Positions 3-33,784 are shown, counted from the first letter of the stretch. The stretch: 37,335 nt of DNA from Elusimicrobiota bacterium (GCA_023249675.1 JAHFCE010000029.1:1-37335); one strand, 5' to 3'. Numbers and translations: made by a program. Notes: generated by a model not told the origin, from the sequence alone.

Positions 3-1181
3 TTCGGCGTCCGCGGCTCCTTGGGCGTGGGCGCCGACGATTGGCGCCAGATGACGATGGGCGCTTCCTATCGCATCAACAAGATCCAGGCCGACTACGC
101 GTTCCTCGTGCCGGTGGGTGCCGTCAAGGCCAATTCCGGCTCGCACCGCATCGCCCTGACCTTCCACTTCGGCGCGCCCACCGGCGACGAGGAGATCAGC
201 CGCGAGCTTCTCGAGCAGGCCAAGCGCCTGCGCGAGCACGGTCCGGACTACGGCTATGAGTACAGCCAGGAGCTCAAGCCCCAGGACTTGAACGATCCGC
301 GCCTGGCCTCGGTGCGCACGCTCATCGAGCAGCGCAAATACCGGCTCGCCCAGAAAGAACTCAACGACTTCATGCAGAAGCAGCCGCTCGGGTCCTCTTT
401 AATCCGGCTGTCGAACCGCCTCGGCCTGACCGCCTCGTATTACCCGGAGCTGCCCGAGCCCCGCGACAAGTACGAGACCAACTTGGTCGCGGCCCTGCGC
501 GGTTTCCTGTACGGCGAGGATCGCGTGGCCATGCTGCACGCGTCGTACGCCTACAACCTGAGGCCCGATGACGCCCTCACGACCCACTACATCGAGGAGA
601 TGGAGAAGGCGGTGGGGCTCAAGGCTGACCGCCTGCCGCCTGATCATCCCCGCGGGTTCATCGATGAACTGCTCTACCGCATCGAGTTCGCCAACACGCG
701 CGGCGACCAGGGGCGCGTTGAGGCGCTGCTCAAGGACGTCATCGAGCTCGAGCCAGAGTCGGTCACAGCGCTTGAGCGCCTCGGCTCGCTGCGCTTCTTG
801 ACGGGACGCTACCTCGAGGCCAACCAGACATGGGAGGCCGCGCTCAAGCTCGAAACCAGGGAAAAGGAGGTCGAGTCCCTGCGCACGTACATGAAGCTCG
901 CCGCCGAACGCGCCAGCGGCAAGGTTCTGCCCGGGGACTTCGCGCCGACCGTGCCCGTAGCAACGGCGCCCGCGGCCACGTCCCCGTCCGCCGCGCCGGC
1001 GACGCGCCGCGCCGGGGACCCGCGCGACGTGCAGGCGCTGTACCAGAAGGGTGTCGAGCATTACGCGCGCGGCGAGTACCTACAGGCGAGCGGCATGTTC
1101 CTGCGCATTATCGCGATCGATCCGGAGAACGAGCAGGCTCGAAAGGCGCTTGAGCGCATCGAGCGCCGTAAGCCGCGATGA
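3..1181 (+). CDS. Outer-membrane barrel C-terminus (PorV/PorQ-like) fused to TPR domain, 5'-partial
   Basis: The reading frame is open from position 3 and runs off the left edge, so the true start is outside the window; the TTG at 21 is only the first start-like codon. The first ~50 visible residues alternate polar and hydrophobic positions and end in HRIALTFHFG. Together with DYAFLVPVG this resembles the last strands of PorV/PorQ-type beta barrels. The rest is helical, with TPR-like units near codons 230-285 and a clear one at the C-terminus (VQALYQKGVEHYARGEYLQA). A Pro/Ala/Thr-rich linker precedes the last TPR. The stop overlaps the next gene's start as ATGA, so it is probably co-transcribed with the kinase and the FliF/FliG-like protein. 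I infer an envelope scaffold role. The barrel family call is moderate; the TPR call is firmer. Confidence 0.7.
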   Translation, partial: FGVRGSLGVGADDWRQMTMGASYRINKIQADYAFLVPVGAVKANSGSHRIALTFHFGAPTGDEEISRELLEQAKRLREHGPDYGYEYSQELKPQDLNDPRLASVRTLIEQRKYRLAQKELNDFMQKQPLGSSLIRLSNRLGLTASYYPELPEPRDKYETNLVAALRGFLYGEDRVAMLHASYAYNLRPDDALTTHYIEEMEKAVGLKADRLPPDHPRGFIDELLYRIEFANTRGDQGRVEALLKDVIELEPESVTALERLGSLRFLTGRYLEANQTWEAALKLETREKEVESLRTYMKLAAERASGKVLPGDFAPTVPVATAPAATSPSAAPATRRAGDPRDVQALYQKGVEHYARGEYLQASGMFLRIIAIDPENEQARKALERIERRKPR

Positions 1182-2527
1182 GCATACGGCTCAAGCTCGT
1201 CTGCATTCTGTCATCGGCCATCGCCCTCACGGCGGCGGCCGCTGCCGTCGTCTTCTTTGTGATCGAAGGCTCCTCCTTGCGCGCGGGCGAAGAGGAGAAG
1301 ATCCGCATCCTGACGCAAAGCGTGCGGACGATGGCCGCCGAATCGCAGCTCGCCAAAGATCCCCTCATGCTGCTCGACTACCTCTCGTTTTTATCGCGAG
1401 ACCGCCCGGAAGTCCTGTCGGCGCGCGTCAACTTCGTGGGCCGCTGGCAGGAGGTTGAGGGCGCTAAGCCCACGGCGAGCGGCGACAAGAGGCGCATGGA
1501 ACTCATCACCGTGCCCGGGGCATCGGGGCATCGTGGCATCGTCGTGGCGCTGCATTTCTCAACGCAAGTCCTGGAGCGAAGAATAGCTGTGGCGCGCGAG
1601 GCGCTCGCCCATGATCTGGGGGGCGCAGCGCTCGCGGTGCTGCTCGTGGGCGCTTTGTTCAGCGTCCCGCTGGCCTGGTCTCTGACCCGGCGGCTCATCG
1701 TCATCGAACGCGCGCTGGCCGACGTCGGGTCGGGACGCTTGGACCGCAGCATCTCGGACGGGGGTTCCGATGAGGTCGCCCAGCTGGCCAAGGGCGTGAA
1801 TGCGATGACGCTACGCCTGCGCGAGCTCGAGGACATGAAGCGGACCTTCGTCGCCTCGGTGACCCATGAGCTGCGCTCCCCGCTTTTTTCCATCGACAGC
1901 TACGTGCGCATGCTGTTAGCGGAAGCCACGGGTCTGCGTCCGGAGGACCGCCAGCAGCTGTCCCGCATTCAGCAGAATGCCGCGCGTTTGGCGCATTTCG
2001 TGACAAGCCTGCTGAACACGGCCAAGATCGAGCGCGGCAGCATGGACTTTCATCCGCGCTTGTGCGACATATCAAGTCTCGTCGAGGACGCGGCGTTGTT
2101 TCAGCGTTCTTTGGTCGAAGAGGAGGGCAAGACTCTCGTCGTCGAGATCGAGCCGGGCCTACCCCCTCTGCAGATCGACCCTGATCTGATCACTCAGGTG
2201 ATCACCAATCTCGTGTCGAACGCCGTTAAATTCACTCGGAGCGGAGGGCGGGTGACGGTCGGTCTCAAGAGGCTGTCGGGCATCGAGCGCGAGAGCATCG
2301 AGTGCTTCGTGGCGGACACCGGCGTGGGCATAGCGCCGGAGGCTCTGGCGACTTTGTTCAAGCCGTTTGGCCAGGTGAAAAATAGTGTCTCCGCGATCGG
2401 CACCGGTCTTGGGCTGTCGATCGTGAAGTCTCTCGTGGAACTCAACGGAGGCGTGGTCGGCGTGGAGTCGATTCCGGAGCGCGGCAGCCGGTTCTATTTC
2501 CGGCTTCCCCTTGATACAAATCGTTAA
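1178..2527 (+). CDS. Membrane sensor histidine kinase (HAMP-HisKA-HATPase)
   Basis: This 449-residue protein has a TM helix at ~5-28, a short periplasmic sensor region at ~30-145, a second TM at ~148-170 and a HAMP linker at ~170-220. The dimerisation/phosphoacceptor box is VTHELRSPL with His230. The ATPase domain shows the N box (N344, N348), G1 box DTGVGI starting at D380, and GTGLGLSI at 408-415. All catalytic motifs are intact, so it should autophosphorylate. The start overlaps the upstream stop as ATGA. No response regulator is encoded in the window, so the partner is elsewhere. Its place directly before the FliF/FliG-like gene suggests it senses or controls that machine, which is an inference. 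Confidence 0.93.
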   Translation: MSIRLKLVCILSSAIALTAAAAAVVFFVIEGSSLRAGEEEKIRILTQSVRTMAAESQLAKDPLMLLDYLSFLSRDRPEVLSARVNFVGRWQEVEGAKPTASGDKRRMELITVPGASGHRGIVVALHFSTQVLERRIAVAREALAHDLGGAALAVLLVGALFSVPLAWSLTRRLIVIERALADVGSGRLDRSISDGGSDEVAQLAKGVNAMTLRLRELEDMKRTFVASVTHELRSPLFSIDSYVRMLLAEATGLRPEDRQQLSRIQQNAARLAHFVTSLLNTAKIERGSMDFHPRLCDISSLVEDAALFQRSLVEEEGKTLVVEIEPGLPPLQIDPDLITQVITNLVSNAVKFTRSGGRVTVGLKRLSGIERESIECFVADTGVGIAPEALATLFKPFGQVKNSVSAIGTGLGLSIVKSLVELNGGVVGVESIPERGSRFYFRLPLDTNR

Positions 2528-2550
2528 TCGCAAACCCTGTGCGCATGAGC

Positions 2551-2556
2551 TATCCT
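2551..2556 (+). promoter_or_regulatory. Candidate -10 (TATCCT) for the FliF/FliG fusion gene
   Basis: GCTATCCT ends 8 nt before the ATG at 2565. The same GCTATCCT sits at the same distance before motA on the other strand (9269-9274). No convincing -35 is visible and no Shine-Dalgarno lies between, so a very short or absent 5' leader is implied. An overlapping alternative is TATATA at 2556-2561. Confidence 0.35.
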
Positions 2557-2564
2557 ATATAGCC

Positions 2565-4073
2565 ATGCGCGTGCCAGCGTTTTTAATCGCGGTCGCTTTG
2601 CTCGCCGTTCCTGCGGCGGCCGCCGAGACCTCGGCGGATGAGAGCCTCGTTTCCGAGAGGCTGTCAAGCCGCGCTTTGGCCGTGCTCGACGGCATGCTTG
2701 GGCCGGGCCGCGCGAAGGTGCTTGTGGAGGTCCGCGGCGAGCGCCTGCAGGTCCGCACGGAGACGGAGATTCTCACCCCCCTCCCCCAAGAGGGCGCCTT
2801 CGGCGCTCATAACGGGGTCAAGGAAGCTCTGCGTCTGCTCGATCTGCCCGGCTATTATAAGGACCGCCCCGTGTCTGCGCCCGCTGAAAAAGCGGATCCC
2901 GTGGCCGTGCAATCCCTCCAGCCGTTCCACAAAGATTTCGAGCACAGCCTGAGGGACGCGGGCTTCGAGATCAAGAAAATAGAGGCCACGGTCGTTCTGG
3001 ACTCGGCCTTGACGGAGACCGAGGCGCGCGAGGCGGCGCAGATAGCGCCGCAGCTGCTGCGCATCGACGCCACGCGAGGCGACGTCCTGAGCATCGTGCG
3101 CGCGCCCATGCGTCCCGCTTGGAAGACGGCCTTTGCCACCCCGGGAGACTGGCGACAGCTCGCCTTCGCCGCGTCCGGGCTTTTGGGCGCCTTGATCTTC
3201 GTCATCATCCTTGCGGCGGCCTTCGTGCGCGGCGCGCGCGTTTTCGCCAAGGAGCTGGTCTCCCGCCGCGAGAGCGCGCTTGGCCCGGCGGCGGCCATGG
3301 GAGAGCCTCTGCCGGAGCTCATGCCCGGCTCGCCCGCGGGGCTCGTCGAAGGAGGCTTCGGCGGCGAGAGCGGGACAGTTCCCGTCGCGGCGATGGGCCA
3401 TCGCTTCGACTTCCTGGAGACGGCCGACGTCGCGGGCGCTACGCGCATTCTGGCCGAGGAACCCCCTGCCGATCTTGCGCAGATTTTCGCGTATCTCGCC
3501 AAGCTGGCTCCGGAGACCGCCTCGCGGTTGTTCTCGAAGCTGCCGGCCGACGTCCAAGCCGAGGCATCGGCGGCCCTCTTGAAGCTGAAGTCGGTCGACC
3601 CGGACCGGCTCTTGGTGATCGAGGAGCGCCTCAAGGTCCTGGTCGTCAACGGTCTGCGGGGTTCTCAGCGGTTGGCGACGATCTTAAGCCGCTTTCCCGG
3701 AGATGAGCGCGCCACGCTCCTGGGCCGCCTCGCCGGCTCGGACTCGAGCGGCGTGGAGGAAATCCAGAGCCAGCTGTTCGCCTTCGAGGATTTCGATACG
3801 CTGTCTCCCGCGGACCTGAGGAGGGTCATGGGAGCCGTGCCTTACGAGTCGTGGGGCCTGGCGCTGCGCGGCGCTCCGCAGAGCCTCGTCGACCGCGTTC
3901 TGTCGGAGTTGCCGGAGGGCCCCCGCGGCCTGGTTCGAGAGGAAGCCGCGACTCCCCAGCCGAGGGACAAGGTCGTGGCCGCTCGCTCGAAGATTCTCGA
4001 CACGGTTCTCGATTTGGCCGCCAAGGGCCAGGTCAGACTCGAGCAAAGTGCGGGCGCGGAGGAAACGCTGTGA
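2565..4073 (+). CDS. FliF (C-terminal periplasmic part)-FliG (middle + C domains) fusion protein
   Basis: This 502-residue protein has a signal peptide at ~1-20. Residues ~30-182 resemble the C-terminal periplasmic domain of the MS-ring protein FliF: LDGMLGPGRAKVLVEV near 41-56, and IEATVVLDSALT then RIDATRGDVLSI near 139-177. One TM helix lies at ~203-222. Residues ~281-355 match the FliG middle domain (FDFLETADVAGATRIL; EEPPADLAQIFAYLAKLAPE). Residues ~361-493 match FliG-C (FAFEDFDTLSPADLRRVM; ALRGAPQSLVDRVL). The FliG N-terminal domain, whose usual job is to bind FliF, is absent, as expected if the two are covalently joined. By hand alignment the torque-helix charges are kept in character (R435 for Lys264, E459/E460 for the Asp288/Asp289 pair, R467 for Arg297 of E. 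coli). I chose ATG 2565 over TTG 2511 because it begins a clean signal peptide and follows a -10-like box. No flagellar genes flank it except motA/motB. Confidence 0.85.
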   Translation: MRVPAFLIAVALLAVPAAAAETSADESLVSERLSSRALAVLDGMLGPGRAKVLVEVRGERLQVRTETEILTPLPQEGAFGAHNGVKEALRLLDLPGYYKDRPVSAPAEKADPVAVQSLQPFHKDFEHSLRDAGFEIKKIEATVVLDSALTETEAREAAQIAPQLLRIDATRGDVLSIVRAPMRPAWKTAFATPGDWRQLAFAASGLLGALIFVIILAAAFVRGARVFAKELVSRRESALGPAAAMGEPLPELMPGSPAGLVEGGFGGESGTVPVAAMGHRFDFLETADVAGATRILAEEPPADLAQIFAYLAKLAPETASRLFSKLPADVQAEASAALLKLKSVDPDRLLVIEERLKVLVVNGLRGSQRLATILSRFPGDERATLLGRLAGSDSSGVEEIQSQLFAFEDFDTLSPADLRRVMGAVPYESWGLALRGAPQSLVDRVLSELPEGPRGLVREEAATPQPRDKVVAARSKILDTVLDLAAKGQVRLEQSAGAEETL

Positions 4074-5764
4074 CGCCGCCGCGGCGCGACCCTCTTGAAG
4101 AGGCCCGGCGCAGGCTTAACGAGGCGGCTGGCGCCCTCGACGGCATGCGTCGCTTGACGGGCGCGCCCGCAGCACCCGAGGCGCCGGCCGGGTCCGCATC
4201 GGAGGGCGTGCGGCGCGAGGCCTTGGCGGCCGCTCGCGAGGATTTACGCCGGATGGCGGCGGACCTGGAAGCCGCGCGCGCGCGGGCGGCGACGCTTCTT
4301 GAGGAGATGGGGCGCCTGCGCGGGGAGTTGGCGGCGCGGCCGACGGCGCGCGAGCTCGAGGAGGCCCGTGCTGCGAGCGAGTCGGACGCGGTCCGTCGCG
4401 CGGCGGAGCTGGCCGCGCAAGTCGTCGGGCTCAAGGAGCGCCTGGCGCTCTTGAGCGCTGAGCACGTGCGCTTGGAGACCCTGCGGCGCAAGGCCGAGGC
4501 GTCCGGAGCGGATTCCGAGGCGTCTCGACGCTCCCTCGAGGAGACCTTGCGGCGGGATCTGCGCGCCACGCATGCCTCGCTCGACCGGGCCGCAGCCGAA
4601 TCCGGAACGCGCGAGGCGAAGGCGGTCACCGAGATCGAGGAGATGCGCAAGCGTCTTGACCAGGCGCTCAACCGCCTTCACCGCGAGGACATGGCCTGCA
4701 AGCTCGAGGAGGCCCGCGCCGCGGGCGAGTCGCAGGCGACCCGCCGCGCCACGGAGCTGACCCAGCAGGTCGCCGAGCTCAAGGAGCGCCTGGCGCTCTT
4801 GAGCGCCGAGCACGTGCGCCTAGAGGCCCTGCGGCGCAAGACCGAGGCTTCTGGGGCGGATTCCGAGGCGTCCCGACGCTCTCTCGAGGAGACCTTGAGG
4901 CGGGACCTGCGTGACGCGCATACCGCGTTCGACCGGGCCGCGGCTGAATCCGGGACCCGCTTTGAAGCCGCTCAGGCCGTCATCGCTTCGCTCCGGCGGG
5001 AGCTGTCTGAGGCGCAATCGCCGCCTCTGCCGCCGGCCGGTGGTGAATTGGGAGACGGGGAGGAAGTCGGCGTCGAATATCCCGCCCTGGAGTACGCCCT
5101 TGAGCCCGGCTGGGCGAAGTTGCTTGGCCTCGTGAAGCCGCCCTTGCAGGCCGCGTACGGTCACCTGCGCCGGCTCTCAGCGGGACCCATGTCGGCGGGC
5201 CAGCGCGCCATCCTGCGCCTGACCGGCTCCAGTCTCAGCGCGGCGGCGGATTCCCTGGCGACGATCGAGCTCGCACTCGCCGATTCGCCGGCGACGAGCG
5301 AAGCGGCATCGGTTCTTCCGATTCTCGAGTCGGCGCTGGCGGCCTGGGAGGCCGTATTCCGGCGCCGCGGAATCGTGCTGGCGCGAGAATTGACCTCGAC
5401 TGTGCCCGATTCGTCCTATGACCCGGAGCAGCTGCGCCTGGCGCTGCACCATGTGCTGCGCAACGCGGTGGAGGCGCTTGCGCGGGGAGCCACCTTGCGT
5501 GTGCATCTTAGGAAATCAGCGACGGATGTCGCTGAACTCGAATTCCGCGACGACGGTCCGGGTTACCCTCTCGCCTGGCTCGAGAGGCAGTTCGAGCCGT
5601 TCGCTTCGCCTCGTCCGGGCCACGCGGGCTTGGGGTTGGCGGCCGTGCGGCGCGCGCTGCGCCGTTGGGGCGGCGACGCCGTGGCCATCAACTCCACGGA
5701 TGGGCGCGGCGCTTGCTTGACGTTGACCTTTGCGCCGGCGCCGGCGCGGCCTGAGGCGAAGTGA
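4070..5764 (+). CDS. Coiled-coil protein with C-terminal degenerate histidine-kinase-like ATPase module
   Basis: GTG 4070 overlaps the previous stop (GTGA) and has a strong Shine-Dalgarno, GGAGGAA, at 4058-4064, so this start is chosen over upstream in-frame ones. The 564-residue product has no signal or TM and is cytoplasmic. Residues ~5-312 are an Arg/Glu/Ala-rich coiled coil containing two near-identical ~87-residue blocks (95-181 and 211-297). Residues ~345-400 look like a DHp domain (LLGLVKPPLQAAYGHLRRL), but the position of the phosphoacceptor His aligns with Gly353. Residues ~450-555 form a HATPase_c domain: N box with N465, RDDGPGY with D495, and GHAGLGLAAV. It may bind ATP yet not autophosphorylate at the usual site. 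Lying between the rotor-like protein and a sensor kinase, it is plausibly a cytoplasmic adaptor or allosteric partner (inference). Confidence 0.8.
   Translation: MTPPRRDPLEEARRRLNEAAGALDGMRRLTGAPAAPEAPAGSASEGVRREALAAAREDLRRMAADLEAARARAATLLEEMGRLRGELAARPTARELEEARAASESDAVRRAAELAAQVVGLKERLALLSAEHVRLETLRRKAEASGADSEASRRSLEETLRRDLRATHASLDRAAAESGTREAKAVTEIEEMRKRLDQALNRLHREDMACKLEEARAAGESQATRRATELTQQVAELKERLALLSAEHVRLEALRRKTEASGADSEASRRSLEETLRRDLRDAHTAFDRAAAESGTRFEAAQAVIASLRRELSEAQSPPLPPAGGELGDGEEVGVEYPALEYALEPGWAKLLGLVKPPLQAAYGHLRRLSAGPMSAGQRAILRLTGSSLSAAADSLATIELALADSPATSEAASVLPILESALAAWEAVFRRRGIVLARELTSTVPDSSYDPEQLRLALHHVLRNAVEALARGATLRVHLRKSATDVAELEFRDDGPGYPLAWLERQFEPFASPRPGHAGLGLAAVRRALRRWGGDAVAINSTDGRGACLTLTFAPAPARPEAK
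4352..4960 (+). repeat. In-gene tandem duplication, 348-bp period
   Basis: Positions 4352-4612 and 4700-4960 encode nearly the same ~87 residues of coiled coil. Shared segments include LKERLALLSAEHVRLE, ASGADSEASRRSLEETLRRD and FDRAAAESGTR/LDRAAAESGTR. Nucleotide similarity is also high: cctggcgctcttgagcg starts at 4441 and again at 4789. The period of 348 nt is exactly 116 codons, so the reading frame and probably the heptad register are kept. It looks like a recent duplication that lengthened the rod. Confidence 0.9.
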
Positions 5765-7860
5765 AGCTTTTCCCCCGCCTTTTTCTCATTCTGATGCTCT
5801 TCGCCACGCTGCCTCTCGCCGGCCTTGGCGCGTGGATGATGTTCGGGCGCCAGGCGGTGCGCGACAACGCCCGCGTCATGCATGGGCGGCTGGCGGCGCT
5901 GACGGCGGAGCAGGCCGAGCGCACGCTCGAGCAGCTCAACCGCTCTCTGGGCGTGGTCGAGGAGATCGAGAGGGCCCGTGGTCTTGCTCGTCTTGAGGAG
6001 AGCGTGGTGCGTCAGGCCGCGATCGCGGACACGGCGGTCGCGCTGATGTCGATTGTCGATGCGTCGGGACGTGAAGTCATGCGCGTGGCCGACCCGGAGG
6101 CGTTTACGGCAGCGTTCGAGGATCGCGCGGCCGACCCGGCCGTTCTCGAGGCGAGGAAAACGGGCCAGGTCTCTCTGGGCGTGTCGCGCTCCGCCGAGGG
6201 GCGGGCCGTGATCTCGGCGGCGCACCCGCTGGCCGATGGTCGCTGCCTGTACCTGCTCTATTCGCTGGACGGCCTGGCCCGGCGCATGAAGCGCATCAGC
6301 ACGAGCGCTGGGCGCCTGCTCTTCATTGACGCCCAAGGCGACCCTATTGCCGGCATCGGCGGGCCTTCTCCGGCCGCGGGCTGGCGCTGGCCCGCGAACG
6401 CGGAGGGAGAATCCTGGCTTGACGACGTCGCCGGTGAGGGCGGGACGTGGGTCGCCGCGGCAGCGCCCGTGCCTGCCTTGGGCTGGCGCGCGGTCAGTCT
6501 CCAGCTGCGGCGGGAGGCCTATGCGGAGGAGTCGGCTGGCGCTGCGCGGGCCGCGGCCTTCTTCTTTGCGGTGTGCGTGATGGTTGCCTTAGGCGCCTCG
6601 ATGCTCAGCCGCCGCCTGGTGCGTCCAGTCGAGCTTCTCCTCTCCGCGGCCGAGCGTGTTTCTGCCAACGATTTTTCCCGTCCCGTGCCTCCCCTGGGCT
6701 GGGGCGAATTCGAACGACTGCGCTCGACTTTCAACGCCATGACCGAAAAGGTTCGCCGCTATCAGGACTTCCAGGTCGATAAAATCATGGAGGAGAAGGC
6801 CAAGATCGACGCCTTGGTCAAGAACATCCCCGAGGGAGTCCTGCTGGCGGGGCAGGATGGTCAAGCGCTTTACGTCAACAGCCTCGCGGTCAGGATTCTG
6901 GGCGCAAATGCGGCGGGCAAGTTCGAGGGCGCCTCATTTCGGGTGAAATCGCCCAAGCTGATCGCGCTCATCGAGTCCGCCCGCGCGGGAAGCAAGAACG
7001 GCCAGACTTCTGTGCTTGAGATCAAGATGAAGGACGGCGAAAAGTCTTTGATCTATTCGTGCCAGGCCCTCTCCGTGTCCCGCGACGCGACTCATCTCGG
7101 CGTGCTTGTGCTCATGCGGGATGTGACGGTCGAGCGCGAGCTGGACCAGATGAAGGATGAGTTCTTCCATTCCCTTGTGCACGACCTCCGCGGGCCGTTG
7201 ACGGTGATCGACGCGATCGTCGGCACTATGAAGTTGTCGGCCAACGCGGATGAGCGCGAGAAGCGCTACGCGGAGCTCGGCGAGCATGCCTCCAAGCAGC
7301 TGGCCGTCCTGATCACAAATATCCTCGACATCGCCAAGATCGAGTCCGGCACGATGACGATAAACGTCACGCGCACGCAGGCGGACGCCCTGCTTCAATC
7401 GGTGCGCCGGCTCTATCAGATTCCGGCCGACGGCAAGCACATCGCGATTACGGCCGCGCCCGCGCCCGGCGTCGAGCTGTCCTGCGACGCGCCGCTGATT
7501 GAGCGGGTGCTCACGAATTTGATCGGAAACGCGATGAAGTTCACGCCGATGGGCGGGCGCATCGAGCTCGCGGCCCGCACGATCGGCTCAGACGTCGAGT
7601 TCTCGGTGCAGGACAGCGGGCCGGGCATTCCCGTCGACAAGCTCGACGCCGTGTTCGAGAAATTCAAGCAGCTCGACCGCGACACGGCGGCGCGCGCCGG
7701 CTACGGCCTCGGCTTGTCGATCTGCCGGAAGATCGTGGAGCTTCACGGCGGGCGCATTTGGGTGGAGTCGGCCTCCGGCCAAGGCAGCCGCTTCGTGTTT
7801 CTCGTGCCGAGCGCGCGTCCGGCCGCGGCCTCCGCCGGCGTCAGTGCTCGCGCCGGATGA
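5761..7860 (+). CDS. Membrane sensor histidine kinase (periplasmic sensor-HAMP-PAS-HisKA-HATPase)
   Basis: GTG 5761 overlaps the upstream stop as GTGA. This 699-residue protein has TM1 at ~5-28, a large periplasmic sensor domain at ~30-255 (Cache-like by length and position), TM2 at ~262-282, HAMP at ~283-335, PAS at ~346-455 and DHp with LVHDLRGPL (His474). Its HATPase domain has N590, G1 box DSGPGI (D618) and GYGLGLSI at 647-654. All kinase motifs are intact. It ends the plus-strand run begun by the barrel/TPR gene and overlaps the convergent motB end by 20 bp. No response regulator is adjacent. Co-transcription with the FliF/FliG-like gene suggests it regulates that system. Confidence 0.93.
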   Translation: MKLFPRLFLILMLFATLPLAGLGAWMMFGRQAVRDNARVMHGRLAALTAEQAERTLEQLNRSLGVVEEIERARGLARLEESVVRQAAIADTAVALMSIVDASGREVMRVADPEAFTAAFEDRAADPAVLEARKTGQVSLGVSRSAEGRAVISAAHPLADGRCLYLLYSLDGLARRMKRISTSAGRLLFIDAQGDPIAGIGGPSPAAGWRWPANAEGESWLDDVAGEGGTWVAAAAPVPALGWRAVSLQLRREAYAEESAGAARAAAFFFAVCVMVALGASMLSRRLVRPVELLLSAAERVSANDFSRPVPPLGWGEFERLRSTFNAMTEKVRRYQDFQVDKIMEEKAKIDALVKNIPEGVLLAGQDGQALYVNSLAVRILGANAAGKFEGASFRVKSPKLIALIESARAGSKNGQTSVLEIKMKDGEKSLIYSCQALSVSRDATHLGVLVLMRDVTVERELDQMKDEFFHSLVHDLRGPLTVIDAIVGTMKLSANADEREKRYAELGEHASKQLAVLITNILDIAKIESGTMTINVTRTQADALLQSVRRLYQIPADGKHIAITAAPAPGVELSCDAPLIERVLTNLIGNAMKFTPMGGRIELAARTIGSDVEFSVQDSGPGIPVDKLDAVFEKFKQLDRDTAARAGYGLGLSICRKIVELHGGRIWVESASGQGSRFVFLVPSARPAAASAGVSARAG

Positions 7861-8479
7861 TGTTGATTTCGATGCGCCGGTTGGCCGTGCGGCCCTCTGG
7901 GGTGTCGTTTTTCTGCACGGGACGGAACTCACCGTAGCCGATCGCCGACAGACGCTGCTGCGCGATTCCGTTGGTCTCCAGAAAGCGCAGGACGGCGAAA
8001 GCCCGTGCTGCCGACAACTCCCAGTTGCTGGCGAACTTGGCGCCTGTGCCGAGAGGCCGGTCGTCGGTGTGGCCCTCGATTTGGATTGCATTGGGCAGGT
8101 CTTTGAGGCTCTGAATGATCTCCCGCAGAATCGGAAGGGAATCGCCCTTGAGGTAGGCGCCGCCGGAATCGAACAGCACAGGCGCCATGAACACGATGCG
8201 GACCTTGTTCTCGCCGATCTCCAGGCGCGCGATCTTCTGCGTGCCGTAGCGGGTGAACATGTGCTGGATGGTCTGGGTGTCGTTGGAAAAACGCTGTTCC
8301 GCGGCCTTCACGCTGATCTGGATGCCCATGCTGCGCGTCGCGGTGGCGACGTAGAGCAGCAGGAAGAAGATCATGAGATAGCTCATCAGGTCGCCGTAGG
8401 TGATGGCCCACAGCGCTCCGCGGTTGAGCTGGTTCTCGAGTTCCTCTTCGCGCTCGTCCCAGTCGTTAGGGTGCTTCAC
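7841..8479 (-). CDS. motB: MotB-like stator protein (plug/TM + OmpA-type peptidoglycan-binding domain)
   Basis: This 212-residue protein begins with GTG at 8479, inside the end of motA (14-bp overlap). A single N-terminal TM carries the stator signature WAITYGDLMSYLMIFFLLLY, with Asp30 in the place of the ion-binding aspartate of MotB/PomB. The C-terminal OmpA/MotB domain shows IEGHTDDRPL, NWELSAARAFAVLRFL and RTANRRIEI, the peptidoglycan-binding residues. Known family role: with MotA it forms the ion-driven stator that anchors to the cell wall and pushes on FliG. Here the only FliG-like partner is the nearby fusion protein. It converges with the PAS kinase, with a 20-bp tail overlap. Confidence 0.93.
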   Translation of the reverse strand: MKHPNDWDEREEELENQLNRGALWAITYGDLMSYLMIFFLLLYVATATRSMGIQISVKAAEQRFSNDTQTIQHMFTRYGTQKIARLEIGENKVRIVFMAPVLFDSGGAYLKGDSLPILREIIQSLKDLPNAIQIEGHTDDRPLGTGAKFASNWELSAARAFAVLRFLETNGIAQQRLSAIGYGEFRPVQKNDTPEGRTANRRIEINIIRREH

Positions 8480-9260
8480 GCACCGCCTCCGCGTTCGCCG
8501 CGGCGTTGACCGTCAAGTCCTGGTAGGCCGCCAGGCGCAGCTCCACTTGGAAGGTCGGCCGGTTGATCGTGATCTCGAGCATCCCCTCGATGATCATCTC
8601 GAGAATCATCGTTTCCCTCATGGCCTGGGAGCGGATATGTCCCGCCAGCGGCACGCAGATGAAGTTGGCCATGCCGATGCCGATGAAGGCCGAGGAGAGC
8701 GCCAACGCCATGGCCGGGCCAAGGCGCGTGGGCTCAGACATCGAATTGAGCACCTGCAGCATGCCGACCAGCGTGCCCAGCAGGCCGAACATCGGAGCTA
8801 AAGTGGCCAGGGTCCTCAGGACGTTGGCGTCCTCCTGGCGCTGGATGCGCTTGCGGCGGATCGCGATTTCGAGAATCTCCCGCGCGCTGTTGGTTTCCCC
8901 GCAGGTTGCGATGGTCTCAAGAGCATACCGGAGAAAGCCGCCCGCGAAATCGCCCCCCTCGCCGCGCAGAGCGAGGATGCCGCCTTCCGCGCGCGCGCGC
9001 CGTGAGAGGCGGGCCAGTTCGGCTGCGGCTTCAGCCGGCGAGGGCAGGTTCGCGGGAAACATCACCCAGGCGATGGTGCGCAGAGTTCCGAGGATCTGCG
9101 ACAGAGAGGTGTTCACGAGAAGCGCGGAGAGGAGGCCGCCAAAGACGATGAGCAGGCCGTGGGGGTCGAAGATGTTTCGGCCGGCGCCGGGGCGCATGAG
9201 AATCCAGGCCAGCACGCCCCCGGACGAAAAAAGACCAACCCATAGGCTGATGTTCACCAT
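8466..9260 (-). CDS. motA: MotA/PomA-like stator protein
   Basis: This 264-residue protein with four predicted TM helices begins at ATG 9260. TM1 and TM2 lie near the N-terminus (NPHGLLIVFGG-like region: FDPHGLLIVFGGLLSALLVN). A cytoplasmic loop follows, then TM3 (LRTLATLAPMFGLLGTLVGM) and TM4 (LGPAMALALSSAFIGIGMAN), the classical MotA signatures. The loop's charged segment EIAIRRKRIQRQED lies where MotA contacts FliG. It is followed by motB with a 14-bp overlap, so the two form a two-gene unit. The coupling ion cannot be settled from sequence by eye. The start is supported by a -10-like box 8 nt upstream; there is no Shine-Dalgarno. Confidence 0.93.
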   Translation of the reverse strand: MVNISLWVGLFSSGGVLAWILMRPGAGRNIFDPHGLLIVFGGLLSALLVNTSLSQILGTLRTIAWVMFPANLPSPAEAAAELARLSRRARAEGGILALRGEGGDFAGGFLRYALETIATCGETNSAREILEIAIRRKRIQRQEDANVLRTLATLAPMFGLLGTLVGMLQVLNSMSEPTRLGPAMALALSSAFIGIGMANFICVPLAGHIRSQAMRETMILEMIIEGMLEITINRPTFQVELRLAAYQDLTVNAAANAEAVREAP

Positions 9261-11761: not shown

Positions 11762-12645
11762 TTCGCGGCGGCGGCCTCCCTGTGTGATTTCCAGAACTTG
11801 CGGATGTGGTCCCAGCCCTCCTCGGCGGTGTCGACCATCTTGAAAAGCTTGTTATCTTCCCAGTGGGTCATGCCCTGCTCGGCGAGATAGTCGAAGTCCA
11901 CGAGACGCTTCCAGAACGTCTTGCCCACGAGGACGATCGGCAGCGGGCGCTTCTTGCCTGTCTGCACGAGGGTCAAGGTTTCGAAGAGCTCATCGAGGGT
12001 CCCGTAGCCGCCGGGGAACGCGACGAGCGCTTTCGCACGCATCAGGAAATGCATTTTGCGCAGCGAGAAGTAGTGGAATTGGAAGCAGAGCTCCGGCGTG
12101 ATGTACGGGTTTGGGTCCTGCTCGTGCGGAAGGGTGATGTTCAGGCCGATGGACTTCGCTCCGCATTCCCACGCGCCGCGATTGGCGGCTTCCATGATCC
12201 CGGGGCCGCCGCCGGTCACGATCACATGCTCGAGGTCCTGGCCCGCCTGCTGGGCCTTCGAGAGCAAGGCCGAGAAGCGGCGGGCCTCCTCGTACCAGTG
12301 GGACAGCTCGACCTTCTTCTCCGCGAGGACGACCAGGCGCTTGAGCTCGACGTCGCGCGGGTGCTCGGCGAGGTTCTCCTGCGCGATCTTGAGAAACCGG
12401 CGGGCCTCCTCGCCGGAGAGGATGCGCGCCGAACCGAACACCACGATCGTGGAGCGTATTTTTTGCTCGCGCAGGACCAGCTCGGGTTTGAGCAGCTCGA
12501 GCTGCAGCCTGACGGCGCGCAGGTCCTTGCGGCTCATGAAGTCCATATCGGCGTAGGCCTTCAGGTAGGCATGCGACTCGCGGATTTTCTGGAGTAGAGC
12601 GTTCTTTTCTTCCGGAAGGAGTTCACGGGTGGTTTTTGGGTTCAT
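11758..12645 (-). CDS. LOG-family Rossmann protein (TIGR00730 type)
   Basis: This 295-residue protein carries the family motifs GGGPGIMEAANRGA (145-158) and PGGYGTLDELFE (211-222). The family includes cytokinin-riboside 5'-monophosphate phosphoribohydrolases (LOG) and bacterial proteins once mis-called lysine decarboxylases; biochemically it hydrolyses nucleoside 5'-monophosphates at the N-glycosidic bond. The ~130-residue helical N-terminal part makes it longer than minimal LOG proteins. ATG 12645 overlaps the dctM stop (ATGA); an alternative ATG at 12666 would add seven residues. Its position between a TRAP transporter and TPR genes is odd. A link to nucleotide-derived substrate handling is possible but unproven. 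Confidence 0.9.
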   Translation of the reverse strand: MNPKTTRELLPEEKNALLQKIRESHAYLKAYADMDFMSRKDLRAVRLQLELLKPELVLREQKIRSTIVVFGSARILSGEEARRFLKIAQENLAEHPRDVELKRLVVLAEKKVELSHWYEEARRFSALLSKAQQAGQDLEHVIVTGGGPGIMEAANRGAWECGAKSIGLNITLPHEQDPNPYITPELCFQFHYFSLRKMHFLMRAKALVAFPGGYGTLDELFETLTLVQTGKKRPLPIVLVGKTFWKRLVDFDYLAEQGMTHWEDNKLFKMVDTAEEGWDHIRKFWKSHREAAAAK

Positions 12646-13907
12646 TGGAGGAGGCGTGGCAGCCATAAACTGAGGCGCGGGCAATAGGTGACGACCATCA
12701 GGGCCCCGACAAGCAGGATCCAGAAGGGAAAGACGGCGCGGTAGAGAACGGGAAGCGGCTTGTTGAAGCGCCGCGAGGAAAGGAAAAGATTCAGGCCGAG
12801 CGGCGGCGTCATGTAGCCGATCTCGAGATTGAGCAAAAACAACGCGCCAAGATGGATGGGGTCGATGCCGTACTGCGCGGCGACCGGCGCGATGATCGGC
12901 ACGACGATGACGATGGCGGAGAAGAGCTCGACCATGTTCACGATGAGCAGGAACACGTTGAGCAAGGCGAGAAAGCCCCACGGACTTTTCACGTGCTCGT
13001 GCAGAAAGGCGAATATTTTCCCCGGGATGTCGGCGTCGATCATGTAGCTCGTCAGGCCCAAGGCGCACCCGAGCACGATCAGGATCGCGCCCACGAGGAT
13101 CATGCTCTCGCGCGCGACCTCGGGGAGCTTGCGCCACGGCACATCTTGGTAGATCAGGACCTCGGCGATCATCACGTAAAAGGCCATGACGGCGGCCGCT
13201 TCCGAGGCGGTGAAGAGTCCGCCGTAGATCCCGCCGATCACGATGAGGGGCAGCGGAATTTCCCAGGCGGCGGCGCGCGCGGCCAAGCGCAGGGCCTTCC
13301 AGGAGAATGGAATCGGCTTGACCTTTTCGCGGCGCGCGACGACGAACGCATACAGCGACAGCGCGAGGAGTATCAGAAAGCCTGGGACCGCGGCGGCCGC
13401 GAATAGTTTGTCGATCGAAATCTTGCCGACCAGCGCATAGAGGATGATCGGCAGGCTCGGCGGAAACATCAGGCCCAGACTTCCGGTCGTGGTGATCAGT
13501 CCGAGGGCGAAGCCCTCCGGGTAGCCCTGCCGGCGCAGCAGCGGGAAGATGAGGCCGCCGAGCGCTATGATCGTCACCCCCGAGGCGCCGGTGAAGGCGG
13601 TGAACAGCGCGCAGGCGCACAGGCCGGCGATCGCCACGCCTCCGGGCAGCCAGCCGATGAGGCTTTCCGCCAGCGCCACCAGGCGCTGAGGCGCTTTGCT
13701 CTCCGCGAGCACGTAGCCCGCGAAGGTGAACAGCGGCACCGCGATCAAGGACGGCAGCGAGGACAGGCGCGAGAGTTCGATGATGACGGCCGATGAGGAA
13801 ATCCCGGCGCCGTGGAACAGCCACAGCGCGAGAGCGCCCATCAGCGCGAACACGGGCGTGCCCGACAGGGCGAACCCCACAAACAAGAGCAGCGCCAGTG
13901 CCGTCAC
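12642..13907 (-). CDS. dctM: TRAP transporter large membrane subunit DctM
   Basis: This 421-residue, very hydrophobic protein has about 12 TM helices, the usual size for DctM. Family-like segments include FALSGTPVFALMGALALWLF at the start, PRLVALAESLIG-type text (APQRLVALAESLIGWLPGGV), and TGSLGLMFPPSLPIILYALV, the PPS motif typical of DctM. The C-terminal TPPLGLNLFLSSRRF is also characteristic. It forms the ion-coupled channel of the TRAP transporter, working with DctQ and the periplasmic DctP. GTG 13907 overlaps the dctQ stop as GTGA. The substrate cannot be read from the sequence. Confidence 0.95.
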   Translation of the reverse strand: MTALALLLFVGFALSGTPVFALMGALALWLFHGAGISSSAVIIELSRLSSLPSLIAVPLFTFAGYVLAESKAPQRLVALAESLIGWLPGGVAIAGLCACALFTAFTGASGVTIIALGGLIFPLLRRQGYPEGFALGLITTTGSLGLMFPPSLPIILYALVGKISIDKLFAAAAVPGFLILLALSLYAFVVARREKVKPIPFSWKALRLAARAAAWEIPLPLIVIGGIYGGLFTASEAAAVMAFYVMIAEVLIYQDVPWRKLPEVARESMILVGAILIVLGCALGLTSYMIDADIPGKIFAFLHEHVKSPWGFLALLNVFLLIVNMVELFSAIVIVVPIIAPVAAQYGIDPIHLGALFLLNLEIGYMTPPLGLNLFLSSRRFNKPLPVLYRAVFPFWILLVGALMVVTYCPRLSLWLPRLLQ

Positions 13908-14407
13908 CTGGTTGTTCCGGCGGCTTCGGCGGCCGCGTCAACGCTCTTGAACAGCAGGTGCGTCAGCACGAGCGCAAAGCCAAGAGGGATTCCGGCCGAA
14001 GCGATCCAAGAGGGCACGACCACTCCTGCGACCGTCATCAGCTCAGCACCCGCGGCGCGATCGTCCAATACATAGGTCCATGACGCCTTGAGCAGGAGCG
14101 CGGTGATCACCGCGCCCGACAGATTGGCGCTCAGGCGCAGCCAGGGCTTCAGCCGCTGGGGCGCCCCCACGTGCGCGGCCTCCCAGGCGAAATGCTTCTC
14201 GCTCGCGGCCGCAAGCGCAGCCCCCATAAAGCCGGTCCACAGAACGAGGTGCTTGAGGGCGGTCTCCCCCCACAGCAGGCCGAGGCTGAAATGACGCAGG
14301 ATCACCTGCGCGAAGGCGAGCGTGACCATGACGGCCAGCAGAGCCGCGAGCAGGGCTCCTTCGGCCGCGGCGAGCCGGGCCTCAGCTTTTCTTAGCTGAT
14401 CGCGCAC
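13904..14407 (-). CDS. dctQ: TRAP transporter small membrane subunit DctQ
   Basis: This 167-residue protein with four TM helices matches DctQ in size and in WGETALKHLVLWTGFMGAAL followed by a conserved-looking EKHFAWE. I set the start at GTG 14407 (VRDQLRKAEARL), 26 bp inside the end of dctP. An open frame continues upstream to 14632, but that part translates to Arg/Ser-rich text antiparallel to dctP coding and looks spurious. No Shine-Dalgarno is evident, consistent with translational coupling. It pairs with DctM and DctP. Confidence 0.88.
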   Translation of the reverse strand: MRDQLRKAEARLAAAEGALLAALLAVMVTLAFAQVILRHFSLGLLWGETALKHLVLWTGFMGAALAAASEKHFAWEAAHVGAPQRLKPWLRLSANLSGAVITALLLKASWTYVLDDRAAGAELMTVAGVVVPSWIASAGIPLGFALVLTHLLFKSVDAAAEAAGTTR

Positions 14408-15464
14408 GGAGGGTGGCGAGCTCCTTCTCGAACTTCCCGAGCAGTTCCGCGGAGAACAGCTTGCCGACGAGCTCCTGGCGCGCGGTCGCGCCCAGCGCCT
14501 CGTAGCGCCCATGCGTCGCGGGGCCGGGATCGGCGGCGAGGTCGAGGCCCTGCTTCTTGAGCGCCTCGAGGGCCTTGTCGTTCTCGGCGTTGGTGAGTTC
14601 GTTGAGGCGCTTGAGGTGCTGCGCCGAGACATCGATCAGGATTTTTTTTTGGTCATCGGGCAGGCCCTCGTAGAACTTCTTGGAGACAAGAACGGCGCCC
14701 GTGGATTCCGCGATCGGCAGCGGGTAGATGTGCTTGAGCCGCGAGTGCCACTGCAGCGCGACGACGCCGAGCGGCGGGCCGTACACGCCGTTGATCAGGC
14801 CGGTCTGCAGGGACTGCATGACGTCCACCACGGAGAGCGGCACGGGGCTCACGCCGAGCGCTGCGTAGGCGGCTTGCGCGATGGGGTCGCCTTCCCACAC
14901 CCACATCTTCTCCTTCTTCATGTCCTCGGGCGAGGCGATCGGATTCTTGCTGAACACGTACACCGAGCCGAGGTCGGTCCAGCCGAGCAGGATGAAGCCG
15001 CCTTTTTCAACGGCGGCCTTCAGCTCCGCGGCGTACTTCACGCGCACGGCCGACAGCTCCGAGCGCCCTCGGAACAGCCAGGGCGCGTCCAGCAGGCGCG
15101 TTTCGGGCGCGACTAAGCCGAGGCCCACGCCGGTAAATCCCGCGGCGTGGAGCTGGCCGATGCGGATCTTCTTGACCACGTCTTTCTCGTCTCCGGAGAC
15201 GCCGCCGGCGTAGAACTTGAACTTGAGCTTGCCGCCGGTCTTCTTCTCGAGATCCTGCGACAGCTCGGTGAGCACCTTCATCCAGGTGGAGCCTTCGGGG
15301 GCCAAGGTCGCGAACTTGATGACGGTGGTCTGCGCGTAGGCCGGGGCTGCAAGCAGCCCCGCACAGATGCCGCTCAGGAGAGCCTTATAACATCTAGGCC
15401 GGGACCCTTCGGGCCCGGCACAGACGCGGCTGAGGAAGGCTTCATAGCGTCTAGAAATAATCAT
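14382..15464 (-). CDS. dctP: TRAP transporter substrate-binding protein DctP (TatP-like)
   Basis: This 360-residue periplasmic binding protein opens, after a signal peptide ending PAYA (~44), with the DctP-type KFATLAPEGSTWMKVL. It carries the family's central region with GDPIAQAAYAALGVSPVPLS and SLQTGLINGVYGPPLG. ATG 15464 is preferred over the open frame to 15509 because GGAG lies 7 nt upstream and the start sits 14 bp inside tatT's end. The N-terminus is abnormally long: residues ~4-20 and ~23-39 are an imperfect duplicate, so the signal peptide carries an extra 19-residue in-frame copy. Substrate unknown. Its association with TatT suggests a lipophilic or unusual ligand by analogy with Treponema TatP. 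Confidence 0.93.
   Translation of the reverse strand: MIISRRYEAFLSRVCAGPEGSRPRCYKALLSGICAGLLAAPAYAQTTVIKFATLAPEGSTWMKVLTELSQDLEKKTGGKLKFKFYAGGVSGDEKDVVKKIRIGQLHAAGFTGVGLGLVAPETRLLDAPWLFRGRSELSAVRVKYAAELKAAVEKGGFILLGWTDLGSVYVFSKNPIASPEDMKKEKMWVWEGDPIAQAAYAALGVSPVPLSVVDVMQSLQTGLINGVYGPPLGVVALQWHSRLKHIYPLPIAESTGAVLVSKKFYEGLPDDQKKILIDVSAQHLKRLNELTNAENDKALEALKKQGLDLAADPGPATHGRYEALGATARQELVGKLFSAELLGKFEKELATLRARSAKKS
15361..15460. repeat. Imperfect 57-bp-period duplication inside the dctP signal-peptide region
   Basis: The segment starting gcacagatgccgctcagga at 15361 recurs as gcacagacgcggctgagga at 15418, about 70% identical over ~42 bp. Between the copies sits a GC-rich hairpin (CCGGGACCC-TTCG-GGCCCGG). 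The period is 19 codons, so the dctP frame is preserved, and the outer end also overlaps the tatT stop region. It may be a local duplication or an inserted palindromic element. Confidence 0.65.
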
Positions 15465-16314
15465 CGATTTTCTCCAGAAGGGCGGCGGCCTTCTTCTTCG
15501 CCGCTTCATCGGTCAGGCGCGCCTCGGGCAGGAGGCCGGCGTTCGCCTCGAGAACCTTCGTCAACAGCTGCCGGAACAGCTCCCGGTCCTGTACCGCCAC
15601 GGCGTACCAGCGCGCGTTGAGGACGTGGGTCATCAGGTACTGGCCGCGCGTGAGTTTGTGCGCCCGGTCGAAATGGGCCTTGGCCCTGTTGGGGTCTCCG
15701 CCGAGCATCGCGGGGCGCGAGGCGTAGTAGACGCCGAAGAATAGGTCGGCGGCGCCGAAGTGGAAGGCCGGGTCGAGCTCGCCGACGCGCTTCATGAGGA
15801 GGCTCGCCTTAGGGAGGTCCGCGAGCGCCGTCGCGTCATCCTTAGAGAGGTTGATCATGCCCGCCCAGCCGAAGCCGGCCCAGAAAAGGTCGGGGACATC
15901 GTCCTGGGTCGCCCGCGAGAGGGCTTTTTCGAAATTCTCGATGTCCGTGTCTTTGAGGTCTTTGAAGGCCGACTTGAGCGAGAGGGCCTCGAGCGCGTGG
16001 TCGCGGCCGCGAATGTACAGGCCTTTGGCCCGATTGGGCGCATCATCCTCGACGAACAGAAACGCGCAGCCGCCAAAGCCCTCGGCAGCCAGGCGGCGCA
16101 GCGAGCGATTCTTCGGCTCGGAGACGAGCATAGTCTCGATCAGCTTGAGCTGGGCAGCGACGGCGTCGCGCCCGAGCTGAAAGTCGGGCTCCTCGAGAGC
16201 GGCTTTGCGTCCGCGCTCCAGCATGGCGGCGGTCGTGCGCAGGGCGTAGTGGTCGATGGAGGCGCAGCCGGAGCCGGCAAGCCCGATGGCCGCGAGGAGC
16301 AGCGCATTCCTCAT
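15451..16314 (-). CDS. tatT: TatT-family TRAP-associated TPR lipoprotein
   Basis: This 287-residue lipoprotein has a lipobox ending LAGSGC (Cys17) followed by helical repeats. The arrangement YIRGRDHALEAL, then DDVPDLFWAGFGWAGMINLS, and FGAADLFFGVYYASRPAMLG matches the TatT (T-component) family known from Treponema Tp0956. There the trimeric TPR lipoprotein partners the DctP-like TatP. The stop overlaps dctP's start, in the same order as known TatPT systems. It is the first gene of a seven-gene overlapping operon. The start ATG 16314 is supported by an extended -10 box 11 nt upstream. Confidence 0.9.
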   Translation of the reverse strand: MRNALLLAAIGLAGSGCASIDHYALRTTAAMLERGRKAALEEPDFQLGRDAVAAQLKLIETMLVSEPKNRSLRRLAAEGFGGCAFLFVEDDAPNRAKGLYIRGRDHALEALSLKSAFKDLKDTDIENFEKALSRATQDDVPDLFWAGFGWAGMINLSKDDATALADLPKASLLMKRVGELDPAFHFGAADLFFGVYYASRPAMLGGDPNRAKAHFDRAHKLTRGQYLMTHVLNARWYAVAVQDRELFRQLLTKVLEANAGLLPEARLTDEAAKKKAAALLEKIDDYF

Positions 16315-21840: not shown

Positions 21841-21896
21841 AGCCCACCCAGAGTAGCGGGATTCTGTTACAAATACAAGGCTAAATTGCGCGCGGC

Positions 21897-22904
21897 TTAG
21901 AGGTAAAAGTCGCGCACCCAGCGGTGGGAGGCGATCGCCGCGAGGTCTTTGGAGCCGAAGTAGTTGCCGTCGCAGACGCGCGCGTTGAAGGTGACGTGCG
22001 ACACGCGGCGCATCCCCGGAATCACGGTTGAAACCGCATCGAAGCTCAGTCCGAACTTGAGCGCGGCCGCGGCGAGCGTCTCCGCCTTGGGGCCGATCAC
22101 GCTCCGCGCGAGCTGGTCGGTGCGGCGGCAGGTCTCCGCCAGGCGCGCGCCGCCGAAGTAATGCGAGCGGAAATCCTCGGGCTCGAAGCGCGTCTCGGTG
22201 GTCAAGGTTCCAGTCAGGCTTCCCTCGTCGAACGGGCAGCGCACGATCACCCCCACGCCCCTGTCGAGGCACAGCGGCAGAAGCTTGTCGGCCGCGCGCT
22301 GATCGAACATGTTGAAGAGGACCTGCACGACGCCGACAAGGCCGGTCTTCACCAGCTCGATGGCGGAGTCGGGGTCGTCGTTGTTGATCGAGACGCCCCA
22401 GTGGCGGACCTTGCCTTCCGCCTTGAGCTTGGCCATCTCAGCGGCGAGCGCGGGCCACAGCGGGTCCTTGAGCCAAGCGTCATGCCACACGTGAAATTGG
22501 TACAGATCGATCGAGTCGGTTGCGAGATTGCGCAGCGAGCGCTCAACACTGAGGCGTACCCAGTCCGGCGGGAAGACCAGCGCCAGTTTCGCGCGCGGAT
22601 GGCCGGGCCATTCCATGTTCTTTGGCGCCACCTTTGTCGAGACGACGGCGCGCTGTCCGGCTTCTTTGAAGAGGCGCGCGATCAGGCGTTCGGAGTGGCC
22701 ATGCCCGTAGGCATAGGCCGTGTCGAAGTAGTTGATGCCCGAATCCAAGGCGGCGTGCAGGGCGCGCATGGACTCGTGGTCGTCCGTTGGGCCCCACATG
22801 GACTTGCCGATGCCCCAGCCCCCGAAGCCGATTTCGGAGACCGACAGCCCAGTTTTCCCCAACGGCCGGTGCGGCAGCTTCAGCGACGCCTCGCTCGCCT
22901 TCAT
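21897..22904 (-). CDS. Aldo/keto reductase
   Basis: This 335-residue (alpha/beta)8 barrel has the AKR signatures: LGKTGLSVSEIGFGGWGIG at the start, FDTAYAYGHGHSE with the catalytic Asp and Tyr, STKVAPK with the Lys, and LYQFHVWHD with the His. The C-terminal region ending GMRRVSHVTFNA fits NADPH binding. The family reduces carbonyls with NADPH, and the substrate is not predictable. ATG 22904 follows an extended -10 box by 7 nt. Upstream lies the 30-bp inverted repeat and then the methyltransferase. Confidence 0.94.
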   Translation of the reverse strand: MKASEASLKLPHRPLGKTGLSVSEIGFGGWGIGKSMWGPTDDHESMRALHAALDSGINYFDTAYAYGHGHSERLIARLFKEAGQRAVVSTKVAPKNMEWPGHPRAKLALVFPPDWVRLSVERSLRNLATDSIDLYQFHVWHDAWLKDPLWPALAAEMAKLKAEGKVRHWGVSINNDDPDSAIELVKTGLVGVVQVLFNMFDQRAADKLLPLCLDRGVGVIVRCPFDEGSLTGTLTTETRFEPEDFRSHYFGGARLAETCRRTDQLARSVIGPKAETLAAAALKFGLSFDAVSTVIPGMRRVSHVTFNARVCDGNYFGSKDLAAIASHRWVRDFYL

Positions 22905-31720: not shown

Positions 31721-32017
31721 TCAGCGCTTGGGTCGTACGCCCTCGGCCCATTGCTGAAAGGGCGGCTTGCCGGACTTCTGCGGCATGGTGTAGCCGAGGA
31801 ACAGCGCGATCGCGGCGAGGAAGGCGAGTTCCACGACGATTTTTGCGATACCGTCGCCGAGGTCCAAAATCTTGTGGAGCGCCCAGACGCCGACCGCTCC
31901 GCCGGCGATCGCCGACAAGACCATGACGTGGTAGGCCTGTCTGCTCCAGTTCGGGTAGCACACCGCGATTGCGCCGTACACCGACAGTCCCAGAACCAAA
32001 GACCGGATCAGCGCCAT
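31721..32017 (-). CDS. Small membrane protein after tonB, unknown function
   Basis: This 98-residue protein has about three hydrophobic helices (~5-22, ~30-48, ~58-77) and a polar tail (QKSGKPPFQQWAEGVRPKR). I recognise no family. ATG 32017 lies 10 bp inside the TonB/TolA-like gene's end, so it is the last gene of the exbB-exbD-tonB unit. It may modulate that complex or be a passenger. Confidence 0.7.
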   Translation of the reverse strand: MALIRSLVLGLSVYGAIAVCYPNWSRQAYHVMVLSAIAGGAVGVWALHKILDLGDGIAKIVVELAFLAAIALFLGYTMPQKSGKPPFQQWAEGVRPKR

Positions 32018-33125: not shown

Positions 33126-33129
33126 GGGT

Positions 33130-33756: not shown

Positions 33757-33760
33757 GGGC

Positions 33761-33778
33761 GCATTATACCTATAATGC
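33761..33778. promoter_or_regulatory. Palindromic divergent promoter with back-to-back TATAAT boxes
   Basis: GCATTATACCTATAATGC is symmetric except for the central two bases and gives TATAAT on each strand: 33763-33768 (minus, exbB, 6 nt to ATG) and 33771-33776 (plus, 8 nt to ATG 33785). Weak -35s fit at 17-nt spacing on both sides: TTGTCC at 33748-33753 (plus) and TTTTCA at 33786-33791 (minus). The two polymerase sites overlap, so they should exclude one another. Confidence 0.7.
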
Positions 33779-33784
33779 CGCTCG

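Follow-up and report, generated by a model that had tools for sequence, protein, structure and literature searches.

A putative non-flagellar rotor–stator machine with a FliF–FliG fusion in Elusimicrobiota

Organization of the locus

The window analyzed here is a 37,335-nucleotide stretch of DNA from an Elusimicrobiota bacterium (GCA_023249675.1, JAHFCE010000029.1:1-37335). It makes up an entire contig (C21) in a 2.60-Mb genome that is 98.6% complete. Its first 9,260 nucleotides hold a gene set with a FliF–FliG fusion and a MotA/MotB stator pair, and point to a rotary machine that is not a flagellum. A sequence-only reading had placed such a candidate machine at 1178–9260; the rotor fusion, MotA/MotB, two sensor kinases, coiled-coil ATPase-like protein and barrel/TPR protein it described are all present, essentially where it had put them, and its boundary needs shifting to take in the partial 5′ barrel gene (1–1181), which belongs to the set and had been left out. 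The evidence is genomic throughout, and distribution counts refer to 295 genomes of one phylum, Elusimicrobiota. The genes of the locus are:

1–1181, + strand: PorV/PorQ-type outer-membrane barrel with C-terminal TPR (TPR matches); 5′ end lost at the contig start
1178–2527, + strand: HK1, membrane histidine kinase, HAMP-HisKA-HATPase (Pfam); H-box intact
2565–4073, + strand: FliF–FliG rotor fusion (Pfam, genome search, profile against PDB, AlphaFold, Foldseek)
4070–5764, + strand: cytoplasmic coiled-coil protein with C-terminal HATPase_c (Pfam, sequence, neighborhood conservation)
5761–7860, + strand: HK2, sensor kinase, Cache-HAMP-PAS-HisKA-HATPase (Pfam)
7841–8479, − strand: motB, with plug-type transmembrane segment, channel Asp30 and OmpA peptidoglycan-binding domain (Pfam, sequence)
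8466–9260, − strand: motA, stator subunit of flagellar type; its cytoplasmic torque-generating loop is complete (Pfam, family profile)

The first five genes form a tightly packed rightward run, in which adjacent genes overlap by 4 bases except at the HK1/rotor junction. HK1 starts inside the barrel gene by 4 bp, the GTG start of the coiled-coil HATPase gene (4070) overlaps the rotor-gene stop, and the rotor ATG (2565) lies 37 bases 3′ of the end of HK1. The motB–motA pair, with a motA/motB overlap of 14 bp, is convergent with this run. Immediately 5′ of the rotor ATG, window positions 2509–2565 are AT-rich and read TTGATA...CTATATAG, and may hold an internal promoter that gives a leaderless start.

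Structure of the rotor fusion

The fusion can be divided into five parts, all on the + strand:

About 2565–2625: signal peptide, as predicted
About 2622–3104: FliF RBM3/collar (ring-building)
About 3141–3278: single transmembrane helix
About 3492–3635: FliG_M
About 3729–4040: FliG_C

Pfam scores for the window copy are 4e-16 for FliG_C, 2e-7 for FliG_M and a weak 0.0015 for FliF_C. Against the PDB, a profile of the full family matched FliG M–C crystal structures (5.7e-56), and a profile built from 32 FliF parts of the family matched FliF M-ring chains (4.5e-12 and 1.6e-9), with SpoIIIAG as a weak match (0.003). The AlphaFold model of the fusion (mean predicted local distance difference test score, pLDDT, 78) displays an α-β-β-α-β ring-building domain with a disordered insert at the position of the FliF collar, followed by one long membrane-crossing helix and an all-helical FliG_M–C region. 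Searches with Foldseek highlight FliG in 13 of 13 matches below 1e-3, and FliF RBM3/collar come next. The FliG_C of the window aligns to that of T. maritima (PDB entry 1qc7) at 1.5 Å (TM 0.89), and to MotAB-bound FliG (PDB entry 8ucs) at 1.8 Å (TM 0.85).

The first membrane helix of FliF, RBM1/2 and FliG_N are missing from the fusion. Since the FliF tail is where FliG_N normally docks, the absence of FliG_N fits a direct FliF–FliG fusion. The N-terminus resembles a signal peptide, and this would place the FliF part outside and the FliG part inside. On the torque helix, the window copy carries R-E-E where E. coli has R287-D288-D289, and the same is seen in several deep copies.

The stator

In the window MotB, Pfam recognizes the plug-type transmembrane segment (4.9e-9) and the OmpA domain (2.6e-18), and the channel aspartate, Asp30, lies in WAITYGDLMSYL; both stator signatures had been noted from the sequence alone and hold. 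The channel Asp is retained in every family MotB with a called N-terminus. With the MotA family profile, structures of flagellar MotA and PomA are matched over the full length, torque loop included, at 6.5e-65, and ExbB at just 0.008; the stator is therefore, on profile evidence, of the flagellar type and not of the generic ExbB/TolQ type, in the sense of PMC12505986.

Two observations concern other stator genes. A separate generic stator set is located at window positions 32008–33984, comprising a TolQ/ExbB-type gene (PF01618 at 33184–33504) followed by ExbD- and TonB-like genes. In the deep-branch loci L056 (6442–8678) and L058 (6811–8962), a tandem pair of MotB-like genes follows MotA, perhaps encoding a heterodimeric B subunit.

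Absence of flagellar machinery

FlhA and FliM/FliN, taken as flagellum markers, and the N-terminal domain of FliF (YscJ-type, PF01514) are missing from the genome, which is 98.6% complete, in searches that gave matches in control genomes. Complete flagellar genes elsewhere using this stator, named as a refuting finding in the sequence-only reading, were thus not encountered. FlhA was found in 3 of the 295 genomes, and FliMN_C scored above cut-off in the same three (G032, G215, and G246; loci L138–L140); neither FlhA nor FliM/FliN was found in any member of the family to which the window belongs. In the flagellated G246, fliF and fliG are separate genes, and the family model gives this FliG a score of 23 bits, versus more than 200 for family members. 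Rod, hook and filament genes were not recognized in the window, where no family search aimed at these was made.

Distribution in Elusimicrobiota

FliFG is present in 121/295 genomes, often in multiple copies, and flagellar-type MotA in 124/295. The two occur together in 121 genomes, MotA alone in 3 and FliFG alone in none; 171 genomes have neither. The genomes without FliFG are mostly small. This agrees with the non-flagellar rotor–stator pairing suggested from the sequence, and corresponds to a Fisher p of ~1e-80, a value inflated by the relatedness of the genomes.

A conserved neighborhood across relatives had been named as a check, and was found in two arrangements. Type B, that of the window, was found again in 18 other loci and in L042, across two families, with the order PorV/TPR, histidine kinase (~440 residues), FliFG (~480), then a coiled-coil HATPase (~660) and a second kinase (~707). 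The last two vary in order and strand; MotB and MotA lie on the opposite strand, and response regulators are nearby in most loci, up to three of them. The sister type (type A) has the arrangement PorV/TPR-kinase-(MotA)-FliFG-coil-MotB. Among its 51 named loci, some of which end at contig ends, PorV/TPR is found in 46, a histidine kinase in 46, MotA in 42, and MotB in 35. These loci were named using a narrower alignment (A4), the first FliF-only alignment having been too divergent for a pattern scan, and A4 biases the named loci toward the sister type.

The genome of the window carries a second motor locus, of type A (L003, 8121–20000; G000 contig C49). It encodes a giant Kelch/FN3 protein of 1995 residues with a C-terminal sorting domain of the type IX secretion system (T9SS), a PorV/TPR protein, an in-frame kinase–FliFG fusion, a short coil, MotA, and MotB. 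Besides this paralogous locus, 13 of the 51 named type A loci encode kinase and rotor as a single in-frame fusion.

Phylogenetically, types A and B are each set apart by a branch with strong support, and the deeper copies lie outside both. As the two types branch separately in several families, the association is an old one. In the deeper branches the set can be reduced to a FliFG-MotA-MotB triplet; its persistence there identifies these three as the core. One operon (L071, 5714–10906) contains two FliF–FliG fusion genes flanking motA.

Kinases and coiled-coil proteins

Across window-type loci a kinase is conserved at the position of HK1, and a kinase of ~707 residues equivalent to HK2 adjoins motB. 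The coiled-coil protein of the window has its HATPase_c domain at about 5420–5731; HisKA is not detectable in it with Pfam, and a histidine in the motif YxHLR(R/K)LS is conserved (four loci compared). The coil protein of the sister type is a candidate C-ring substitute or scaffold; that of L063, when scanned, matched no Pfam family. Coil genes of L061–L088 (for example, L063 11626–13053) share a conserved coiled coil, an N-terminal SIF(S/A)SL motif and a IEESKISARREIEDLLKAVREQQKYSEMDRQMH core.

The outer-membrane barrel

The barrel of the window is truncated by the contig start, and its PorV identity is read from full-length relatives. These match the PorV family model NF033709 (L063, 1.6e-45; L060, 5.4e-39) and the PorV structure 6h3i (3e-25), and carry an extra C-terminal TPR domain. 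The barrel of L042, which is of the window type, has a weak PorP/SprF family match (7e-8). Giant or short sorting-domain proteins (T9SS type A or CHU_C) adjoin the barrel in several loci; TIGR04183 scored above cut-off in L003, L042, and L113, and CHU_C in L042. Such a neighbor would lie beyond the end of the contig and is not visible in the window.

SprA-like proteins of ~1800 residues occur in 254/295 genomes, all with matches below the curated cut-off, as is the match in the genome of the window (E 4.7e-17). A T9SS-like translocon may therefore be nearly universal in Elusimicrobiota. A search for GldM in the 295 genomes gave zero matches, and control genomes were equally silent.

Proposed machine and alternative readings

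The homologies, domain order, conserved operons, co-occurrence and absence of flagellar parts, all at the level of sequence, argue for a dedicated non-flagellar, ion-driven rotor–stator machine, and this core, taken alone, is very likely. Many FliF–FliG copies would form one ring, built in the periplasm by FliF RBM3/collar, with the single helix crossing the membrane and FliG facing the cytoplasm. A MotA5–MotB2 stator, anchored to the wall via the OmpA domain of MotB, would turn this ring by pushing FliG_C, as in the flagellum. The ring would carry no attached rod, filament, export gate or FliM/FliN switch, and the two kinases, the coiled-coil HATPase and the response regulators would control (gate) the motor. 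Its load would probably be the PorV/TPR outer-membrane protein together with a partner surface protein bearing a T9SS-type sorting domain. By direct contact between rotor and carrier, rotation may push carrier and adhesin along the envelope, a gliding-type output akin to that of SprF/SprB driven by GldLM. In Bacteroidota gliding, a motor-driven track propels SprF carriers holding SprB (PMC12635249). Carrier movement is favored as the output because the motor operon itself includes a carrier-like barrel and a sorting-domain protein. We put the probability that the rotor–stator machine moves such a gliding-type load (PorV/SprF-like carriers of surface adhesins), standing in for GldLM, at about 0.5. 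The wider proposal, of a phylum-wide class of flagellum-independent rotary machines with a natural FliF–FliG ring turned by MotAB, kinase-bearing rotor subunits in some lineages, and gliding in which outer-membrane carriers of giant adhesins are propelled and GldLM is replaced, is offered tentatively.

Several observations weigh against this model. A PorV gene alone is unspecific for motility, the genome of the window having 10 PorV-family matches, and no periplasmic component dedicated to linking rotor and barrel was identified. Many genomes that lack FliFG have SprA-like genes; the motor is thus separable from secretion. The torque helix of type A mostly has E-Q for R-D at positions 287–288, and the MotA loop varies in this type. 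Since the torque-helix charges differ between types A and B, the chemistry of the rotor–stator contact may differ as well. A co-evolution of charges between the MotA loop and FliG_C had been put forward as a check and gave a mixed picture, the window and several deep copies being flagellar-like, the sister type not, with no simple covariation. Finally, we know of no cultured species with the system.

The sequence-only reading had proposed a new class of motor for motility, secretion or wall remodeling; the rotor–stator machine is supported, and its possible outputs can be ranked. Given how often kinases accompany the rotor (near 46 of the 51 named loci, with the in-frame fusions described above, and, in window-type loci, two kinases together with a coiled-coil HATPase and as many as three response regulators), the stator-driven or stalled FliFG ring might instead be a mechanosensor, reporting load or surface contact to adjacent or fused kinases with a phosphorelay and gene expression as output. 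This we consider unlikely, as the conserved PorV/TPR carrier and the sorting-domain proteins beside the motor point to an output that is mechanical or at the surface, and deeper loci keep FliFG-MotA-MotB, several with no kinase in view. The same carrier and sorting domains would suit a motor that takes the place of PorLM/GldLM and powers T9SS-like secretion via SprA and the adjacent PorV-like barrel; the SprA-like proteins in 254 genomes and the lack of GldM matches in all 295 are consistent with it. However, with SprA-like proteins in 254 genomes versus FliFG in 121, the motor is not a general energy source for export, the GldM search was silent in its controls too, and the SprA matches are below the curated cut-off, which makes a role as export energizer a rather doubtful one.

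Much less probable is a motor for remodeling the cell wall or envelope, by positioning wall enzymes or by energization of the Tol-Pal type. MotB does have a peptidoglycan-binding domain; however, no recurring wall enzymes were recognized in the loci, where unlabeled neighbors are only partly annotated, and ExbB/TolQ-type genes exist separately. The homology to the flagellar motor, and the 3/295 genomes of the phylum with flagellar genes, might also suggest that the set is left over from a lost flagellum, or that it provides the stator for flagellar genes elsewhere in the genome. Against this stand the absence of FlhA, FliM/N and the FliF N-terminus from the genome, the conserved multi-copy paralogs with neighborhoods of their own, the trimming of FliF to RBM3 and its fusion to FliG, and the separate fliF and fliG of G246, whose FliG is unlike the family. 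This reading was rejected on the missing marker genes and the G246 comparison, and is given a very small chance indeed.

Comparison with known systems

The proposed machine shares with the flagellar motor a homologous stator (channel Asp and torque loop), the FliG_M/FliG_C folds and FliF RBM3/collar, and the geometry of ring and torque is presumably the same. In contrast to the flagellar motor, it lacks the FliF N-terminal membrane helix, RBM1/2 and FliG_N, and its FliF and FliG are naturally fused; FliM/FliN and the export apparatus are absent from the genome, no genes for rod, hook or filament are in view, and the operon includes kinases and a PorV-type outer-membrane protein. FliF–FliG fusions have been studied in Vibrio (PMC11481574).

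With the GldLM/PorLM motors of Bacteroidota gliding and T9SS (PMC12635249, PMC9389320) it has in common an ion-driven motor accompanied by PorV/SprF-type carriers and sorting-domain surface proteins. Here, however, MotAB and a FliFG ring are found and two-component control genes lie in the operon, and a GldM-like match was not found (295 genomes; control silent too). The AglRQS motor of Myxococcus gliding is likewise a MotAB-related stator in non-flagellar use and, to our knowledge, has no FliG rotor; the present locus differs in combining a flagellar-type stator (MotA/PomA 6.5e-65, ExbB 0.008) with a FliF–FliG rotor. AglRQS groups with generic ion transporters (PMC12505986, PMC9389320). ZorAB of the Zorya system is another non-flagellar MotAB-like complex (compared in PMC12505986). 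Defense genes were not recognized among the neighbors of the motor loci, for which no dedicated defense-system search was made. Zorya is, as far as we know, a defense system without a FliG rotor. Indeed, we know of no FliG ring in the non-flagellar MotAB relatives (AglRQS, Zorya, and GldLM), nor of a FliG ring outside flagella. The parts are thus known, with a torque generator homologous to the flagellar one, and, on the defining features that were tested, the system as a whole fits none of the known kinds. Searches of the open literature (Elusimicrobia FliG, MotA or gliding, FliF–FliG fusions, non-flagellar rotors, and T9SS), from which subscription papers and preprints fell outside the scope, returned nothing on such a system.

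A conserved rotor–stator module that lacks export, switch and filament parts would demonstrate that the motor can stand alone, and would be a test case for the evolution of the modular flagellum. For structural studies it offers a minimal rotor that is fused by nature, and the kinase–rotor fusions give a direct way to ask whether a rotary motor can signal. It is also a possible mechanism of motility for a phylum described as being without flagella (PMC7031533).

Other genes in the window

Three further regions were noted. Read from their translations, positions 12642–15509 are likely to encode a tripartite ATP-independent periplasmic (TRAP) transporter (large permease, small permease, and solute-binding protein), and 34852–37335, at the contig end, a MoxR/BatA-like operon of the aerotolerance type. 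Positions 18913–22272 encode a protein of ~1000 residues with many TPR repeats.

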